35,795 nt of DNA from Oscillospiraceae bacterium. GTDB taxonomy: Bacteria > Bacillota > Clostridia > Oscillospirales > UBA929. Shown here in pieces: positions 211 through 34,292 of this stretch. A program made the position numbers and the translations under genes. The stretch lies in NCBI GenBank assembly GCA_031253545.1, contig JAIRWH010000096.1, positions 1 to 35,795 on the forward strand. Reading direction: 5' to 3'. Numbering within the stretch: position 1 is the stretch's first letter; every line of letters begins with the position of its first letter. Under the pieces are notes generated by a model, which was not told the origin of the DNA, did not search any database, and saw only the letters and a list, made by a program, of their open reading frames with translations.

Positions 211-258
211 AGGGGCAATCAAGGGCGTATCATTTTGTGCCTGTGCTAGTCAAGCCCC
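211..258. mobile_element. probable right end of the IS1595-like element
   Basis: Between the transposase stop and 258 lies a short non-coding tail that starts with GGGGC at 212 and ends with GCCCC at 254-258, as expected for an element end with a terminal inverted repeat. Read on the minus strand from 258 it begins GGGGCTTGACTAG. The last eight codons of the minus-strand lipoprotein fall in this tail. The left end is outside the window, so neither the inverted repeat nor a target duplication can be confirmed. Confidence 0.4.
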
Positions 259-1330
259 TATCATAATCAAGACAATGTAGTTTTTCTATTATATAGTTGT
301 TTTGTTCATCGATCGCAAAATAGAAATTGTACGGCGTGTTATCGAGTTCTGCCAATATTAAAACCCCATCTGAAATATTGGGGTTTCTGTAAGGACGTAA
401 TGCTATGTCTTCTGATGCGTATTTTCTTGCTGTTTCTTCTTCATATCCAAGCGATACAATTCTTGCAGTTTCGTACTCTATCAATGCGCTCTTGTCTATC
501 GCATTTATTGCCTTGTCAGTATATGGAAAAGCAGAAATTATGTTAATACTCGGCATTTTTACATTGAATAAGTCAATGTACATGAAACCCGCGCCGCCGT
601 TGTTTAGAGCTTCCATATAATGTTCTCTGTTGTAACTAACGGTATCAAGCGTGGCATTGAAGTCGTTTCTGTTGTTTATAATATAGTCATGTACATAAAG
701 ATGAGCATTCAAGGGAATTGAAATACCGTTAAAATAAACTTGGGGACCCAAATATGTAATGCTACCGGGGGATTGCCTGACATACTTGTTGTAGTTATCA
801 AGTACGTCAACCGCGCCCCTTATGTACTCATGTTCAGAGGAATGCATGCCCATGTATTTGTCATATTGGTACTTGTATTTACCGTAAATAATATCATAGA
901 GTTTGTCTTCGTTTAACTCTACTCCGAATGTATTGTATATCTCCGCAAAACTTTTTTCATTGATATTTTTCAATTCTTCCAGACTAATGTCATTAACAAA
1001 AAAGGTAGTCCATATTAACGCATCACCAATTATCATTTCTATCTGCGTTGTCCTTGGATCTTCCGTCAATGTAGACTGCGCCCTAAACTTGCCGTCCTTC
1101 GAGAGGGCGGGGTCTATGGACGGAGAAGGCTCGGCTTCCGACGGCGACGGAGAGGGTGAGGGCGACGGAGAGGGTGAAGGGGAATCGCTCGGCGATGCCG
1201 GGGTGCTCGGCGTGGATTGCGAGGGCGAGGGGGAATTGGCGGGGGCGCTTGGGGACGGCAAACCGCCCGCGCAAGCGGCGAGGGCGAGCAACAAGGAGAG
1301 GATAAGGGCGAATATGACGGTCTTTTTCAT
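230..1330 (-). CDS. Ser/Pro-linker lipoprotein, copy 1 (3' end probably altered by IS)
   Basis: The protein is 366 residues long and probably exported and lipid-anchored: a signal peptide (MKKTVIFALILSLLLALAAC) ends in a lipobox with Cys20. A low-complexity Ser-Pro linker follows at about residues 24-72, then a mixed alpha/beta domain of about 290 residues that I do not recognise. I chose the ATG at 1330 because AGAAGG lies about 10 bases upstream; an in-frame ATG 24 bases further up lies ahead of that site. A paralogue lies at 33294-34292 (+). The two are nearly identical through the linker and the segment SIDPALSKDGKFRAQSTLTE, then drop to partial similarity with shared blocks such as YQYDKYMGM and NVKMP. 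The last residues, GLTSTGTK, are encoded by what looks like the end of the neighbouring IS, so the natural C-terminus was probably lost. The C-terminal coding DNA is clearly more AT-rich than the 5' cassette. Function unknown. Confidence 0.8.
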   Translation of the reverse strand: MKKTVIFALILSLLLALAACAGGLPSPSAPANSPSPSQSTPSTPASPSDSPSPSPSPSPSPSPSEAEPSPSIDPALSKDGKFRAQSTLTEDPRTTQIEMIIGDALIWTTFFVNDISLEELKNINEKSFAEIYNTFGVELNEDKLYDIIYGKYKYQYDKYMGMHSSEHEYIRGAVDVLDNYNKYVRQSPGSITYLGPQVYFNGISIPLNAHLYVHDYIINNRNDFNATLDTVSYNREHYMEALNNGGAGFMYIDLFNVKMPSINIISAFPYTDKAINAIDKSALIEYETARIVSLGYEEETARKYASEDIALRPYRNPNISDGVLILAELDNTPYNFYFAIDEQNNYIIEKLHCLDYDRGLTSTGTK

Positions 1331-1373
1331 TACAAGGTACCTTCTTTCGTGCAATTTGAGTATGACCGTACAG

Positions 1374-18417: not shown

Positions 18418-18526
18418 ACACATCACCCGGAAAAACACCACCCCGCAGCGGACAGTTTGCCCGCAGGGCGGTTTCCGTCGCAAATTGCCCGGCCGCCGGG
18501 GATTTCGCGATTTGCGCAAAAAAGAC

Positions 18527-18555
18527 TTGACCGTGCGCGGGAGCGGGTGTATCCT
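18527..18555 (+). promoter_or_regulatory. promoter of the DUF5050 gene
   Basis: TTGACC (18527-18532) and TATCCT (18550-18555) are 17 bases apart on the plus strand. They leave a leader of about 135 bases before the start at 18697. That leader includes a GC-rich stretch and the CCGAAGTAAC repeat at 18668-18686. Confidence 0.55.
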
Positions 18556-18667
18556 GTAAAAGTGAGGCTTTTGCGGTTATTGTCCCGGCAGAGAATCGCG
18601 GGAAAGCCGAGCCCGGAAGTTTCACTCCCCGGGAAGGGATGGGGCGAAAACTTTCCGCATACGGTTT

Positions 18668-18686
18668 CCGAAGTAACACAAAGGGG
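18668..18686 (+). repeat. CCGAAGTAAC leader repeat, second copy
   Basis: CCGAAGTAAC followed by ACAAAGGGG, matching 3244-3262. The AAAGGGG end serves as the Shine-Dalgarno site for the gene starting at 18697. Confidence 0.5.
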
Positions 18687-18696
18687 TTTTCGGAGC

Positions 18697-19572
18697 ATGG
18701 CGTCTGCAAACTGCTCGGAGCGCGGCAATACCGCGGGCAATATTATTAACCGCGGGCATGCCGCCGCGCAAGGCGACAGAATATATTACCGCGACGCGGG
18801 CGACGGCGACAGGCTCTGCTCGGCAAAGCTCGACGGCACAGACAGGCGTGTGCTGAGCGACGATAAGCCGGAGTTTATCAACGTGGCCGGCGACAGGGTC
18901 TATTACAGCAACGCCGGCGGGGACTTCCGCCTCTATTCCGTAAAACTCGACGGCTCGGACAGGCAAATGCTGTGCGAAGACGAGTCCTACCATGTCAACG
19001 TGGTGGACGGCACCGTTTACTACCAAAGCGGCAACGACGTCATGCGCGCCGTGAATACCGACGGCACGGGAGGCCACAGCATAACGGACGGCCTGCCGGG
19101 CGAAGATATGCCGGTATTTGTAAACATAGAGGGCGGCAGGCTCTATTACAGCGACTTCAACAACGACAGCAAACTCTGCTCAGCAAAACTCGACGGCACA
19201 GACAAACAGGTTCTCTGCGAAGATGTGTCAATGTTTATAAACGTGTACGGCGGCAGAGCCTACTACTCCAACGGCAGCGACGGTTGGAAGCTCTGTTCGG
19301 TGAAGCTCGACGGCACGGACAGGCAAGTGCTTTGCAACGACAACTCGCGATACCTCAATGTGGCGGGCGACAGCGTGTATTACCGAAACGAGGACGACGA
19401 CGGCAAACTCTATTCCATAAAGCTCGACGGCACCGGCAGACGCCGCCTGAACAACGACGCGTCTATGTTCATAAACGTGGTGGGCGACGTAATTTTTTAC
19501 AAAAACCGCAACGACGGCTACAAACTTTACAGAATGAAGACCGACGGAAGCGACAACAAGCGGGTGGGGTAA
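18697..19572 (+). CDS. DUF5050 tandem-repeat protein, no signal peptide
   Basis: The 291-residue protein is built almost wholly of tandem units of about 39-41 residues; I count six complete units and one partial unit from residue 25 onward. The unit reads roughly G-D-x-V-Y-Y-x-N-x-x-D-x-x-K-L-Y-S-x-K-L-D-G-T-D-R-Q-V-L-x-x-D-x-x-x-F-I-N-V, as in DUF5050 (PF16472-like) proteins, which are thought to form beta-propeller-like folds. Unit three is irregular (VYYQSGNDVMRAVNTDGTGG). Relatives are often secreted or carry an N-terminal enzyme or anchor domain. Here the first 25 residues (MASANCSERGNTAGN) show no signal sequence, so the protein should stay in the cytoplasm unless the start lies elsewhere. 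AAAGGGG stands 10 bases before the ATG. Function unknown. Confidence 0.85.
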   Translation: MASANCSERGNTAGNIINRGHAAAQGDRIYYRDAGDGDRLCSAKLDGTDRRVLSDDKPEFINVAGDRVYYSNAGGDFRLYSVKLDGSDRQMLCEDESYHVNVVDGTVYYQSGNDVMRAVNTDGTGGHSITDGLPGEDMPVFVNIEGGRLYYSDFNNDSKLCSAKLDGTDKQVLCEDVSMFINVYGGRAYYSNGSDGWKLCSVKLDGTDRQVLCNDNSRYLNVAGDSVYYRNEDDDGKLYSIKLDGTGRRRLNNDASMFINVVGDVIFYKNRNDGYKLYRMKTDGSDNKRVG

Positions 19573-25498: not shown

Positions 25499-25939
25499 TT
25501 ACGCCTTGCCCTTCATCTCGGTAATTACGCCTTTGAGCCGCTCTATGAGTTTCCTTTGATTGATAAACTGAAACTCGCGGCTTACCCTGTGCCGCAGTAT
25601 ATGCTCGTTCACGGGTTTTGCCATAAAATCGTCGGCTCGCAGCGCGAACCCCTTCTCTATGTCTTCGCCGCCGTCTAAACCCGACATGAAGACAACGGGT
25701 ATATCCGCAGTGGCATCGGATTCTTTCAGCGCGGCGAGTACCTGAAAGCCGTCTATGCCGGGCAGCACGATGTCGAGCAATATCAAGTCCGGGAGCAGGC
25801 GGGCCGCTTGCTCCAAGGCGCTCTCGCCGTCGTCGCAGATGTGCAGCGTGTAATCCTCGCCCAGTATATGGCTTATAATCCGCTGGTTCAACCTGTCGTC
25901 CTCGCAGATAAGCACGGCGCCTTTTTTGTCAGTGTCCAT
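25499..25939 (-). CDS. single-domain response regulator (CheY-like)
   Basis: The 146-residue protein is one receiver domain with a short helical tail. The acidic pocket is Glu13-Asp14-Asp15, the phosphorylation site Asp56 (LILLDIVLPGIDG), the switch residue Ser86 (VVFMSG) and the conserved Lys108 (AKPV). There is no DNA-binding or enzymatic output domain; the last 25 residues (FINQRKLIERLKGVITEMKG) look like one amphipathic helix. Such proteins act by phosphorelay or by binding a partner. No histidine kinase is in the window. GGGAGGATGAT precedes the ATG at 25939. It lies between a Cys/His-rich secreted protein gene (65 bases upstream) and thrS (41 bases downstream), all on the minus strand and possibly one transcript. 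Confidence 0.92.
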   Translation of the reverse strand: MDTDKKGAVLICEDDRLNQRIISHILGEDYTLHICDDGESALEQAARLLPDLILLDIVLPGIDGFQVLAALKESDATADIPVVFMSGLDGGEDIEKGFALRADDFMAKPVNEHILRHRVSREFQFINQRKLIERLKGVITEMKGKA

Positions 25940-26004: not shown

Positions 26005-26625
26005 TCAATGATGCCCGCGCCCGTGGTGGCCGCCGTCGCGCGCGTGGCCGTGCGCGTGGCTCGCGGCAATGTCGCAGCCGCTCACGCCGCAGGTGTGGTA
26101 CGCATGGCCGTCGCCGCCGCGGTGGCCGTAATAATAGGTGCCGCCGTGCCCATGACCGTTCGTCACGGCGCAACCCGGCAACGCGCACAGCGCGTGGCCG
26201 TGCTCTTGGGCGATGGGGCAGGCATCAATGTCACACACATACGCGGGCGATACGGCGGAGGGTATACCTTCCGGCGAAGGCGAAAGCGAGGGCGAGGGTG
26301 AAGACGAAAGCGAAAGCGAAGGCGAAAGCGAGGGCGAGGTTGGCGGCGGAGGCGGCGCGGCGGATACCGTAGGCGCGGCGATGTGGTAGTAATGACCGTC
26401 GAGGGCAAAGTGGGCAAAGTAGATAACGCCGCCGTGCCTGTGGTAATCGGGCAACGCGCAACCTTCAAGGGCGCAGACATCGTGCGTGTGGCTCGCGGGT
26501 TTTTCGCAGGAGGGAACCTCGCAGGCATAGGCGGTCAGACTGCCTTGCGGCGCGAAGAGCAGGAGCGAACCGCCGATTGCGAGAACCGGCGCGCACACCG
26601 CCACGCCCAAAAACAGTTTTTTCAT
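26005..26625 (-). CDS. exported protein with five C-x4-C-x5-H-x-H modules
   Basis: The 206-residue protein starts with a signal-like hydrophobic segment (residues 3-25, MKKLFLGVAVCAPVLAIGG). After it come two copies of the motif C-x4-C-x5-H-x-H (Cys35/40-His46/48 and Cys51/56-His62/64). A linker rich in Pro and Ser (about 85-125) follows, then three more copies (Cys131/136-His142/144, Cys147/152-His158/160, Cys179/184-His190/192). Each pair of modules is followed by a GG-x-Y/I-Y ... DGHxYH segment (about 65-81 and 161-177), and the C-terminus is His-rich. The regular spacing suggests five metal sites, or Cys-pair disulphides with His clusters. I do not recognise a named family. The ATG at 26625 is preferred because AAAAGGG lies just far enough upstream; an ATG at 26637 directly abuts that site. 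Confidence 0.75.
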   Translation of the reverse strand: MKKLFLGVAVCAPVLAIGGSLLLFAPQGSLTAYACEVPSCEKPASHTHDVCALEGCALPDYHRHGGVIYFAHFALDGHYYHIAAPTVSAAPPPPPTSPSLSPSLSLSSSPSPSLSPSPEGIPSAVSPAYVCDIDACPIAQEHGHALCALPGCAVTNGHGHGGTYYYGHRGGDGHAYHTCGVSGCDIAASHAHGHARDGGHHGRGHH

Positions 26626-26724: not shown

Positions 26725-26753
26725 AGTATAACACACCTCTTCGGGTGTTTCAA
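26725..26753 (-). promoter_or_regulatory. promoter with palindromic spacer for the Cys/His-module gene
   Basis: On the minus strand, TTGAAA (26748-26753) and TATACT (26725-26730) are 17 bases apart. The spacer holds the inverted repeat ACACC-CGAAGA-GGTGT, which extends into both boxes (AAACACC/GGTGTGT). That is a good position for a repressor or metal-sensor operator; the regulator is unknown. Confidence 0.65.
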
Positions 26754-26911: not shown

Positions 26912-27769
26912 TTGGTTGTCCGCTGTATATCACTAATTGTTATATTAACGGCGCTCACGGGGTGCGGGCGCTCGCCTTCCGGCGGCACCGCTTCTTCGCC
27001 TTCGCTAGGCGCGCACACCGTCACCCCACCCGTCTCCACTTCCGCGCCGCCGGTTTCCCCGCCCGTGTCTCCGCCCGTGTCTCCGCCCGCGAGCGCAGAC
27101 GAACCCGCCCCCGGAGCTTCGTCGGACGGCGTGCCGCCGCCTGCGGAGACAGGCGAAACGCTGACATTCGGGGCTTATGTGTGGCGTGTCATTGACAAAA
27201 ACGACAACATGACACTCATCATCACGGACGAGGTAATTGAGTTTCGTCCTTACCACGATGTGTTTGACTTTGTGACATGGGAACAAAGCGACCTGCGAAC
27301 CTGGCTCAACGGAGAGTTTTACATGAGCTTTTCCGAAACGGACAGGGGGAGAATACGCGAAACGAATATTGAAAACAAAAATAACCCGTGGTATTACGCC
27401 GAATACGAGGGGAGCGAATGGGCGCCGCGAGGCGGCAATGACACGCGCGACCGTATCTTCCTGCTTTCGATAGAAGAGGCGTTGCGCTACTTCGGCAACG
27501 GCGGGCAACTGCCCGCGCCCTCGCCGGAGATGTATGTGACCGGCGGTTTTTCCGACGCGTATGACCGCGCGCGCGTGGCGTACTCGGCGCGCCCGACACC
27601 CTGGGGCGCGCCGGAGGGCACACCGTGTACATGGTGGCTGCGCTCGCCCGGCGGCAACGCCGACTACGCCGCCATAGTCTACGGCGACGGCGACGTGCAG
27701 GTCTACGGCGACGGCGTATACCGGGGCGGGCGCGGTGTGCGCCCGGCCATGTGGATAATCGGCGGTTAG
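26912..27769 (+). CDS. DUF6273-domain lipoprotein
   Basis: The 285-residue product has a very short lipoprotein signal ending in LTGC (Cys18). A Pro/Ser linker with PPVS repeats (about 35-75) follows, then a domain of about 200 residues. The domain starts FGAYVWRVIDKNDN, contains W-x-x-S-D-L-R-T-W-L-N-G near residue 128, and ends WWLRSPG ... GVRPAMWI, which is the layout of DUF6273 proteins common in gut Bacillota. The middle has DRIFLLSIEEALRYF. These are extracellular proteins of unknown function. I start at the TTG at 26912: a GGGGGG-rich Shine-Dalgarno-like stretch stands about 8 bases upstream and the signal peptide begins here. No ATG in this frame suits. It is divergent from the Cys/His-module gene. 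Confidence 0.8.
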   Translation: MVVRCISLIVILTALTGCGRSPSGGTASSPSLGAHTVTPPVSTSAPPVSPPVSPPVSPPASADEPAPGASSDGVPPPAETGETLTFGAYVWRVIDKNDNMTLIITDEVIEFRPYHDVFDFVTWEQSDLRTWLNGEFYMSFSETDRGRIRETNIENKNNPWYYAEYEGSEWAPRGGNDTRDRIFLLSIEEALRYFGNGGQLPAPSPEMYVTGGFSDAYDRARVAYSARPTPWGAPEGTPCTWWLRSPGGNADYAAIVYGDGDVQVYGDGVYRGGRGVRPAMWIIGG

Positions 27770-31224: not shown

Positions 31225-32217
31225 TTATTCTTCCCCGGTGAGCATATCCTCCATATCCCCCTCGTCCAAGCCGTATGTTTCCGCGGACTTGTCCCCACGC
31301 GGCTCTATGTGTACCATTATGTCGTATACATGCTCTAACCGTTTCTTTATCTCGGCTTCCACGCGGCAGGCTATGGCGTGGGCTTCCGACACGGCAAGCC
31401 CGGGGTCTACCTCTATGTCAAGGTCAATGTCCCAAAACCCCGCGATTTTCCTCATCCGCGCCCTGTGCGGGTTATCCGCGCCCTCTGTGGCTTCCACGGC
31501 CTCCAAGATTACGCGGTATTGCGCCATGCCACCGCCGCCGTCCATGAGCTCCATATTTGCCTCGCGAAATATCCCCACGGCGGTTCCGGTTATCCATAGG
31601 CCGATTGCAACCTCCACCGCCGCGTCCGCGTGAGCCGAGCCCGTGAGCGCCGACACGCCGAGACCGGCGAGTACCCCCACAGACACCATCACGTCGCCTG
31701 CCATGTTTTTTGCGTTTGCCTTCAGCAACGGCGAGTCGGCCTTTTTTCCCAAGAAGTACTGGTTGAGCGCCAACAGCAGCTTGCAGGCGACAGACACCCC
31801 GGCCGCCGCCGCGGCGGCCGCTCCCGGTGTGTCGAGGTTCTCGCCGCTCATCAGCGCCCTTACCGCGCTGATGATGATTTCCGCGCCCATGAAGAATATG
31901 AGGAACGACAAAAACGCCGTGGCCACGGTCTCCGCCCGCCCGTGACCCCACGGGTGCTCCGCGTCGGCGGGCTTTGATATTACGCCCACCACAAACAGTG
32001 TGACCGCGGAAATCAGCACATCCCCAACGGAATCAATGCCATCGCCCACGAGCGCCCCGCTGCCCGCATACAATCCCGTCGTGATTTTTAACGCGGCGAG
32101 AACGGCGTTGACCGAGGCGGCCGTCACGGCGGCGCGGCGAATGGTTCTTGTTTTGTCCGCCGCAGTCGCGGCTCCGCTCGCGGGCGCGCCGACAGCCTTC
32201 ACCCCGTTGCGTTTCAT
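31225..32217 (-). CDS. cation diffusion facilitator (CDF) family metal transporter
   Basis: The 330-residue protein is a CDF antiporter that exports divalent metal ions in exchange for protons. Membrane helices occupy about 30-210, and a C-terminal cytoplasmic domain (about 225-305) contains IDLDIEVDPGLAVSEAH and VYDIMVHIEP. The transport-site residues are Asp62 and Asp66 (GIDSVGDV) in helix 2, and Asn171 and Asp175 (NMAGDV) in helix 5. The position of Asn171 is His in the zinc transporter YiiP, so metal preference may differ (manganese or iron are candidates). HPWGHGRAE is the usual loop motif. The ATG at 32217 overlaps the DUF368 stop as ATGA, with GGAGG 7 bases upstream, so the two are co-expressed. 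An acidic tail ends the protein. Confidence 0.9.
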   Translation of the reverse strand: MKRNGVKAVGAPASGAATAADKTRTIRRAAVTAASVNAVLAALKITTGLYAGSGALVGDGIDSVGDVLISAVTLFVVGVISKPADAEHPWGHGRAETVATAFLSFLIFFMGAEIIISAVRALMSGENLDTPGAAAAAAAGVSVACKLLLALNQYFLGKKADSPLLKANAKNMAGDVMVSVGVLAGLGVSALTGSAHADAAVEVAIGLWITGTAVGIFREANMELMDGGGGMAQYRVILEAVEATEGADNPHRARMRKIAGFWDIDLDIEVDPGLAVSEAHAIACRVEAEIKKRLEHVYDIMVHIEPRGDKSAETYGLDEGDMEDMLTGEE

Positions 32218-33095
32218 TTCCCCGCCTCCGTTTCTTTCCCCGTCATCACCCTTTTCAGCCCCGTAAACAGCAGGCCCGCGGCAAAGCCCCCCGCGCACAG
32301 CGCCGCCGCCGCAAGGGGCGAAAAACCGCCGCCGCCGGGCATATTTAGGGCCTGTATCGTCACGGTCGCGAGCGAACCGACGATAAACCCGAGCACCACG
32401 GCGTAGGCGTAAGCCGGGCACTTGGCAAAAACAAGGCGCAGCAACGCGGACACGGCCATAAGCCCGACCACGGCGCACAAGGTAAACAGCGCGAACAGCG
32501 GCAAATAGGTGAACCGCATACGCATTATTTCGTTCGCTATGTGCAGTAGCTGGCCATACAGCTTCATGAGCATAAGCACCAACGAAACGCTCATACCCGG
32601 CACGAGCGCGCTCACCCCGCCGGCAAAACCGCCCAACGCAAACAGCGGCGCGGGCGAAAATACGCCCGTTTCGCCTACGGGTTGCGCCGGCACGAGCAAC
32701 CCAAAGGCCGCCACCGCCAACCCCACCGCCGCCGCCGTGAGCAAATGGCGCTTTGCGGGTTTGCTTGCCCCCATCTCCCCGAATACCGCCGGGAGGTTGC
32801 CGGCTATCAGGCCTATAAACAAAAACGAAGTGAGCTTTTCGTGCGCCTCAAACAGATAGCCGAAAGACAATGCGAACAGCACGGCGGCGACGGCCGCGCC
32901 CACGAGCAGCGGGGCGCAAAACACCGCGTTTTTGCGAAAATCCCTGAAAGGGTTCGCGATAACGCGCAACAAGTCTTGGTACACGCCCATGCCAATGGCC
33001 ACCACGCTCCCGCTCAAGCCCGGGGCGAACACGCTCAGGCCTAAGAAGAAGCCGCAGAATACGCGGTAGAGGAAGCGAAACAGAATCTTACGCAT
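32214..33095 (-). CDS. DUF368 membrane protein (polyprenyl-phosphate transporter family)
   Basis: The 293-residue protein has eight or so hydrophobic segments and the paired family signature, FLGLSVFAPGLSGSVVAIGMG (shown split as FLGLSVFAPGLSG, SVVAIGMG, about 14-34) and FAGGVSALVPGMSVSLVLML (about 163-182). This inverted repeat is typical of DUF368 (PF04018) proteins. Some relatives are reported to recycle polyprenyl phosphate lipid carriers across the membrane; assignment here is by family only. I start at the ATG at 33095, where the family N-terminus begins. The promoter's -10 box ends only 9 bases before it, so the transcript would have almost no leader and there is no Shine-Dalgarno site. 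It is co-transcribed with the CDF gene. Confidence 0.85.
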   Translation of the reverse strand: MRKILFRFLYRVFCGFFLGLSVFAPGLSGSVVAIGMGVYQDLLRVIANPFRDFRKNAVFCAPLLVGAAVAAVLFALSFGYLFEAHEKLTSFLFIGLIAGNLPAVFGEMGASKPAKRHLLTAAAVGLAVAAFGLLVPAQPVGETGVFSPAPLFALGGFAGGVSALVPGMSVSLVLMLMKLYGQLLHIANEIMRMRFTYLPLFALFTLCAVVGLMAVSALLRLVFAKCPAYAYAVVLGFIVGSLATVTIQALNMPGGGGFSPLAAAALCAGGFAAGLLFTGLKRVMTGKETEAGK

Positions 33096-33104
33096 AACGG
33101 TAAC

Positions 33105-33134
33105 AGTATACACCAACCGGCGCGGGCAAGTCAA
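33105..33134 (-). promoter_or_regulatory. promoter of DUF368-CDF operon, nearly leaderless
   Basis: On the minus strand, TTGACT (33129-33134) and TATACT (33105-33110) are 18 bases apart. The ATG at 33095 begins 9 bases after the -10 box, so the start site would be within a few bases of the start codon. Confidence 0.65.
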
Positions 33135-33207: not shown

Positions 33208-33220
33208 CCCCCCTCCCCCC
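33208..33220 (+). other. C-tract (G-rich on minus strand) next to promoter
   Basis: Two runs of six C are separated by one T and lie directly against the -35 box at 33221. It corresponds in position to the G-quadruplex motif beside the promoter of copy 1. Confidence 0.5.
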
Positions 33221-33250
33221 TTGACAATCCCCACGCCCTTATGCTACACT
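33221..33250 (+). promoter_or_regulatory. sigma-A promoter of lipoprotein copy 2
   Basis: TTGACA (33221-33226) and TACACT (33245-33250) are 18 bases apart with an extended TG, matching the promoter at 1374-1403 almost base for base. Confidence 0.75.
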
Positions 33251-33293
33251 CTTTACAGTCATACCCAAATTGTATGAAAGAAGGTACCTTACA

Positions 33294-34292
33294 ATGAAAA
33301 AGACCGTCATATTCGCCCTTATCCTCTCCTTGTTGCTTGCCCTCGCCGCCTGCGCGGGCGGTTCCTCCCCGTCCCCAAGCGCCCCCGCCGCTTCCCCCTC
33401 GCCCTCGCAATCCACGCCGAGCAACCCGGCATCGCCAAGCGATTCCCCCTCGCCCTCCCCCTCACCGTCGCCGTCGGAAGCCGAGCCTTCTCCGTCCATA
33501 GACCCCGCCCTCTCGAAGGACGGCAAGTTTAGGGCGCAGTCTACATTGACGGAAGACCCAAGGAGCAGAAAAATCGGCTACGGTGATGCTCTAATAGATA
33601 GTTTTATGCTTAACGAAAAAAGTTTCGAACAATTAAAAGAGTTTAACGAAAGAAACTTTGCGGAATTATACGACGTATATGGCATTGAACTGAACGAAGA
33701 TATATTGTATGATATTCTCTATAATAAGTTTGAATACCAATATGATAAATATATGGGTATGTTTGCCTCCAAGCATAAGCACGTCAGGGATATAGCCACA
33801 TTGTTTGATAACCTTGATTGGGAAAGCTACTTTGCAAGTGACTACCGATACAAAATTAACGGACATAGTATAGGCAGTACAAAGAGTAGTGCACTAATAC
33901 GGGATTACATTAATAATGATAGGGATGATTTCGATTTCAGTATATTGGGAGACCCAAGTAGCTTTGATGTTAGAGCGTGGGCTGAAAAACAGACAGGCAG
34001 AAACTTTATGTATATTAATCTTCTAAACGTAAAAATGCCAACGATTGAAATAATTACTGCCCGTGCATATACGGCTGAACTTCTTGCAATGTTTCCTTTT
34101 CTAAGATATAACGAGGAAGAACAAATACTTATTATAGCAGAATTGAACAGCATACCTTATTGCTATACATTTACAATAGATGAACACAACGATTTTGTTG
34201 TACAACGTGCTAGATTACTTAGCGAAGAAATCAACCCCGGCGAATCAGAATTCATGACAGAATTTTCGATATCCGGAAATCAAATAATCTAA
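33294..34292 (+). CDS. Ser/Pro-linker lipoprotein, copy 2
   Basis: The 332-residue lipoprotein has the same signal peptide as copy 1 (lipobox LAAC, Cys20), the same Ser-Pro linker with small changes in repeat number, and the same segment SIDPALSKDGKFRAQSTLTE. After that the two differ: blocks such as ELNEDILYDILY, YQYDKYMGM and NVKMPTIEIITA are shared, but much of the rest is not. It keeps a longer C-terminal tail (EEINPGESEFMTEFSISG) that copy 1 seems to have lost at the IS junction. GC content falls sharply after the shared cassette, from GC-rich linker to AT-rich domain. AGAAGG lies about 10 bases before the ATG. A perfect 20-bp hairpin follows the gene. The function is unknown; the repeated cassette suggests that the surface domain is the variable part. 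Confidence 0.8.
   Translation: MKKTVIFALILSLLLALAACAGGSSPSPSAPAASPSPSQSTPSNPASPSDSPSPSPSPSPSEAEPSPSIDPALSKDGKFRAQSTLTEDPRSRKIGYGDALIDSFMLNEKSFEQLKEFNERNFAELYDVYGIELNEDILYDILYNKFEYQYDKYMGMFASKHKHVRDIATLFDNLDWESYFASDYRYKINGHSIGSTKSSALIRDYINNDRDDFDFSILGDPSSFDVRAWAEKQTGRNFMYINLLNVKMPTIEIITARAYTAELLAMFPFLRYNEEEQILIIAELNSIPYCYTFTIDEHNDFVVQRARLLSEEINPGESEFMTEFSISGNQII

Follow-up and report, generated by a model that had tools for sequence, protein, structure and literature searches.

A Cys/His module protein with an export-type N-terminus from an Oscillospiraceae bacterium, and the sigma/anti-sigma operons of its relatives

The Cys/His gene and its surroundings

We examined a 35,795-nucleotide stretch of DNA from an Oscillospiraceae bacterium (hereafter the window). 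On its minus strand, an open reading frame running from an ATG at 26625 to a last codon at 26008 and a stop at 26005-26007 encodes a protein of 206 residues. The translation contains five exact copies of a C-x4-C-x5-H-x-H module, starting at residues 35, 51, 131, 147 and 179 just as the first-pass annotation of this DNA had placed them, along with the Pro/Ser linker, the two DGHxYH segments and the His-rich C-terminus that it described. The signal peptide it proposed is also recognisable, on reading the sequence, as an export-type N-terminus. The gene, its parts and its immediate neighbours are as follows.

25499..25939, minus strand: stand-alone response-regulator receiver, 146 aa (PF00072, Pfam)
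26005..26625, minus strand: gene for the Cys/His module protein with export-type N-terminus, 206 aa (open reading frame, coordinates including the stop)
26524..26625, minus strand: predicted signal peptide, residues 1-34, with MKK, a hydrophobic stretch and AYA ahead of Cys35 (sequence reading; putative cleavage site)
26482..26523, minus strand: module 1, CEVPSCEKPASHTH, residues 35-48 (pattern search)
26434..26475, minus strand: module 2, CALEGCALPDYHRH, residues 51-64 (pattern search)
26383..26433, minus strand: module 2 extension, GGVIYFAHFALDGHYYH, residues 65-81 (sequence reading; conserved in the family)
26242..26379, minus strand: Pro/Ser-rich linker, residues ~83-128 (sequence reading)
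26194..26235, minus strand: module 3, CDIDACPIAQEHGH, residues 131-144 (pattern search)
26146..26187, minus strand: module 4, CALPGCAVTNGHGH, residues 147-160 (pattern search)
26095..26145, minus strand: module 4 extension, GGTYYYGHRGGDGHAYH, residues 161-177 (sequence reading; conserved in the family)
26050..26091, minus strand: module 5, CGVSGCDIAASHAH, residues 179-192 (pattern search)
26008..26049, minus strand: His-rich tail, residues 193-206, ending GGHHGRGHH and common to the family (sequence reading and tail counts)
26725..26753, minus strand: putative sigma-A-type promoter, TTGAAA-17-TATACT (consensus match)
26915-27769, plus strand: DUF6273 lipoprotein gene on the other flank of the Cys/His gene (PF19789, Pfam)

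Modules 2 and 4 each carry a 17-residue extension with a DGHxYH end. Apart from Cys11 in the signal peptide, every cysteine of the protein belongs to a module, giving ten in the mature chain. The two halves on either side of the Pro/Ser linker represent an internal duplication (43% identity over ~53 aa, E 4e-11). Shuffling residues 34-206 200,000 times produced zero, one or two modules per shuffle and never three or more. Across the organism's own genome, the DNA pattern of the module matched ten times: five matches lie in the gene, and the other five are singles scattered over other contigs.

The gene order is DUF6273 lipoprotein, Cys/His protein, response regulator and then thrS (named by translation). 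The response regulator, predicted at first pass to follow the gene, lies 65 nt downstream on the same strand, and the Pfam/NCBIfam search found no output or DNA-binding domain in it. Querying the nearest relative genome (G014) with this regulator returned weaker homologues only, the best at 34% identity. Co-transcription with the Cys/His gene is possible, and any functional link would be hypothetical. Upstream, the promoter proposed earlier stands as a consensus match, whereas the palindrome reported in its spacer does not exceed chance: when the stretch was shuffled, a palindrome with 5-bp arms arose in 14% of trials, and it therefore means little.

Several other features of the window were recorded. 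A cation efflux gene of the CDF type (PF01545 and ZT_dimer; 31228-32478, minus strand) lies 4.6 kb away from the Cys/His gene, a distance at which we do not regard the two as linked. At 32217-33134 (minus strand) there is a VCA0040-like (undecaprenyl phosphate translocase-like) gene, and a DUF5050 protein gene (PF16472) occupies 18457-19572 (plus strand). Inverted repeats of 107-155 nt, 89-96% alike and ~32 kb apart (1051-1415 and 33209-33564), sit in paralogous genes for Ser/Pro-rich, lipoprotein-like proteins that had no Pfam match (230-1354, minus strand; 33270-34292, plus strand).

A patchy family of relatives

Relatives were sought in a single scan of 84,980 GTDB species genomes, using a degenerate DNA pattern for one extended module. 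Of the 67 stretches returned, 59 were judged to be real relatives and eight to be chance matches, on the basis of reading frame and, where the start was present, an export-type N-terminus. The hosts are mostly Lachnospiraceae, Oscillospiraceae and other Clostridia MAGs, many of them of gut origin by isolate name or lineage. Enterococcus raffinosus, one Treponema and one Coriobacteriales MAG also carry a relative, as do two bins labelled Muribaculaceae and Alistipes, which may be mis-binned. The proteins range from 76 to 386 aa, with two fusions of 664 aa and some members clipped at contig ends, and contain 1 to 16 exact modules. The window protein shares the traits that define the family: exact modules, at least one of them with an xG-x5-H-x4-GH extension, and an N-terminal export signal and His-rich C-terminus, judged from hydropathy in the relatives, from tail counts and from our reading of the window protein. 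The module unit is not confined to the window genome and marks a patchy, mostly Firmicutes family.

A profile search with the module, the check put forward at first pass, was run on 391 genomes of the class without imposing the spacing. The carriers it recovered were G104 (whose sequence is that of locus L088), G416 (the L046 locus) and the window genome itself. Since this spacing-tolerant profile recovered three carriers only, the family is rare as well as patchy. A protein search of 18 genomes of the taxonomic family and 394 of the order gave one real relative, again in G104; those weak matches that were read out lacked modules and were mostly out-of-frame or low-complexity. With a shorter DNA pattern, eight of the 391 class genomes matched, the real cases being G000 and G104, and the remaining matches were rejected as no commoner than in a reversed-pattern control. 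No relative was confirmed in the viral contigs searched, phages queried with the L088 protein and plasmids queried with the window protein gave no match, and PADLOC reported nothing for the window protein.

The earlier statement that the unit belongs to no named family held in Pfam, NCBIfam and PDB sequence searches. The window protein had no match in Pfam or among PDB sequences, and two weak NCBIfam matches both fell far below their cut-offs. Searching it together with 41 relatives against Pfam/NCBIfam gave scattered weak matches, at most four members hitting any one family, and none of these proteins reached the curated cut-off of a named metal-binding family (zinc fingers, metallothioneins, YHYH and others). 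As far as these libraries and a limited search of open papers go, the wider family seems to be undescribed.

Sigma and anti-sigma genes beside the relatives

Clustering of neighbouring genes placed an ECF-type sigma gene directly downstream (+1) at 12 of the 59 loci, RsgI-like genes near 15 and, at four, an adjacent SigI-like sigma gene. About a dozen relatives show the order Cys/His gene, ECF sigma, RsgI-type anti-sigma. Individual loci differ in detail. At L109 the clustered sigma gene is unlike the others and the next gene, when the sequences were read, is not RsgI-like; at L050 the sigma gene is absent from the gene calls, yet an RsgI gene stands as far away as it usually does; at L082 and L093 no complete RsgI gene is reached before the contig or locus runs out. 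RsgI_M, RsgI_N, sigma-70 region, Peptidase_M56 and Penicillinase_R domains were confirmed for example neighbours. Across the order, RsgI_N itself turned up in just 14 of 295 genomes. For part of the family, the genomic association with sigma/anti-sigma genes is strong. Among the 25 Pfam families listed for 68 neighbours, no recurrent metal transporter or metal gene was found beside the relatives.

A motif, TGAAAGGW-N15-CGTRT, with a constant length of 28 nt, precedes the Cys/His gene at 12 of 12 ECF-type loci examined (L046, L050, L051, L058, L060, L068, L072, L082, L085, L090, L093 and L100) and at L102, and has no other occurrence in the 1.39 Mb of strand that was scanned. Because the same 12 loci served both to derive the motif and to count it, what supports it is the unvarying spacing together with its absence elsewhere. 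The SigI-type loci L088, L107, L071 and L089, and L054 with no sigma gene in view, have CCC...TCGTAT stretches instead. Sigma-I promoters carry CGWA at -10 (PMC10575876).

The RsgI proteins linked to the family have short tails, with no recognised domain past RsgI_M in the two proteins tested. Their last 60 residues contain 4-10 histidines (14 proteins), against 0-1 in RsgI controls from the order, of which there were only five. In known RsgI proteins, signalling runs through C-terminal sensor domains that are divergent, with carbohydrates sensed (PMC12203970); we found no literature on RsgI with histidine-rich tails. Metal sensing by these tails is what we infer from the association.

These operons resemble the SigI/RsgI intramembrane proteolysis systems of Clostridium thermocellum and Bacillus subtilis: the relatives' anti-sigma genes encode RsgI_M (PF23750) and in some cases RsgI_N (PF12791), and the relatives show the DxNPS stretch and, ahead of the Cys/His gene, -10 motifs of the CGTA type. 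They differ in the sensor: in known systems it is a carbohydrate-binding, a hydrolase-like or an unknown domain, whereas the outer tail here is short and His-rich. In its working, the arrangement recalls CnrYXH of Cupriavidus metallidurans, where an extracytoplasmic metal-binding protein is encoded beside an anti-sigma and an ECF sigma factor (PMC7689651). That likeness is one of working, no sequence relation having been seen; CnrX is a helical, membrane-anchored sensor, and its system acts on an RND efflux pump, whereas in the relatives the target would be the Cys/His gene itself.

A second type of signalling gene accompanies a few members. L073 and L105 join five modules to a BlaR1-type M56 sensor in one protein, and a Penicillinase_R (BlaI-type repressor) gene stands just upstream, an arrangement like that of BlaR1/MecR1 (Peptidase_M56) with a BlaI-type repressor. 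L045, which is cut, is the tail of such a fusion, L098 is a version split over two frames, and in L053 the Cys/His gene directly follows a BlaR1-type M56 sensor gene. The fusion was seen in only a few Lachnospiraceae loci that closely resemble one another, and the window gene is unfused.

No ECF sigma and membrane anti-sigma genes adjoin the window gene, no ECF (TGAAAGGW-N15-CGTRT) or SigI motif was found upstream of it, and the window genome, unlike those with known SigI/RsgI systems, gave no RsgI_N match. The window member is thus a stand-alone copy, to which the circuit does not apply directly.

Module chemistry and the proposed function

The spacing of the module is rigid. The window and its 59 relatives contain 305 exact modules, and where a histidine follows a C-x4-C pair within 11 residues, the next one falls at exactly +5 in 304 of 310 cases. 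Leaving out the modules that the search pattern had selected, the figure among the relatives is 229 of 235 C-x4-C sites with a histidine within 11 residues. Residues between the Cys and His positions vary. At nine sites in four relatives (L049, L081, L108 and L111) the module reads C-x4-C-x5-C, cysteine replacing HxH, which by its pattern is a ligand-type swap. In 15 relatives (L046, L050, L051, L056, L057, L058, L060, L068, L072, L079, L082, L083, L085, L090 and L102) HG[HG] stands right behind the AxA-type site, so the predicted mature chain may begin with histidine. Some proteins bind copper through an N-terminal His, and these relatives may resemble them.

Taken together, the strict spacing, the ligand-type swaps and the His-rich tails are more readily explained by a metal site than by a plain disulphide, and metal binding outside the cell is likely, judging from sequence features. 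The metal-binding array outside the membrane that was suggested at first pass is therefore still the best reading of the rigid spacing, the H-to-C swaps and the His-rich tails of both this protein and the linked anti-sigma factors, metal binding itself being what we infer from them. Two AlphaFold models agree on a beta-hairpin beginning at HxH; their pLDDT values of 65 and 64 make them too weak to judge a metal site. Foldseek with a low-confidence model found no PDB match.

The same hairpin would suit a disulphide-stabilised surface repeat, in which the C-x4-C disulphide pins a small beta-hairpin, the histidines serve pH response or polymer or mucin binding, and any metal is incidental. Extracellular cysteines of an exported protein could be disulphide-bonded, the cysteines nearly always come as C-x4-C pairs, and variable repeat numbers of up to 16 units recall surface adhesins. 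We nevertheless consider this unlikely: HxH at its fixed +5 is kept almost as strictly as the cysteine pair, the H-to-C swaps look ligand-like, the hosts are largely anaerobes, and His-rich tails recur on both the Cys/His protein and the linked anti-sigma factor. Less probable again is a reporter of envelope stress or redox state, whose thiols rather than any metal would be read by RsgI or BlaR1-type proteins. The repeated tie to signalling genes (ECF or SigI with RsgI; the BlaR1 fusion) speaks for such a reporter, but the window gene and most Lachnospiraceae members have no signalling link, the His ligands go unexplained, and, given the upstream motif, the protein is probably made by the circuit and is not a sensor alone. 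A host- or polysaccharide-binding surface protein under RsgI sensing of extracellular polymers, as in cellulolytic clostridia, would agree with carbohydrate sensing by the C-terminal domains of known RsgI (PMC12203970) and with the many gut hosts, but is very improbable given the short, His-rich tails with nothing recognised beyond RsgI_M (two tested) and the lack of a carbohydrate-active module in the Cys/His protein by Pfam. Among known secreted metal binders, IbpS-type iron-binding proteins are small, secreted and metal-binding (PMC6813330), as is predicted for the Cys/His protein; the window protein and 41 relatives gave no consistent Pfam match to any family of this kind.

We favour, with moderate confidence, an exported metal binder or buffer built from Cys2His2 modules, tied in many relatives to sigma/RsgI autoregulation, with the window copy outside that circuit. 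The protein would be exported to the cell envelope or secreted, each module forming one small metal site outside the cell and the DGHxYH extensions and tail supplying further His ligands. From Cys2His2 chemistry, zinc would be the first guess and most likely metal, with copper(I) or nickel next. The metal may be buffered or captured at the cell surface, thiols being able to stay reduced there in an anaerobe. In many relatives the gene comes first in an operon with an ECF sigma gene, or stands beside a SigI-type sigma gene, together with a gene for an RsgI-type anti-sigma factor whose outer tail is His-rich; metal, or some related signal from the envelope, would set the sigma factor free and so lead to more Cys/His protein. 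The window gene would be driven by its ordinary sigma-A-type promoter without such a circuit.

More tentatively, and with rather less than even confidence, these loci may amount to an undescribed metal system of gut Firmicutes, with the secreted Cys2His2 array as a main product of an autoregulated ECF/SigI regulon and the RsgI His-tail sensing metal, the window gene again lying outside the circuit. Alongside the operon and its constant motif, short, expressible members, among them a 117-aa protein of Eisenbergiella tayi and others from Anaeromassilibacillus senegalensis and Acetatifactor muris, make the family testable. If true, this reading would add a new kind of signal for RsgI-type anti-sigma factors, metal instead of polysaccharide, and a secreted metal-binding repeat of gut bacteria that is unnamed in the family libraries searched.
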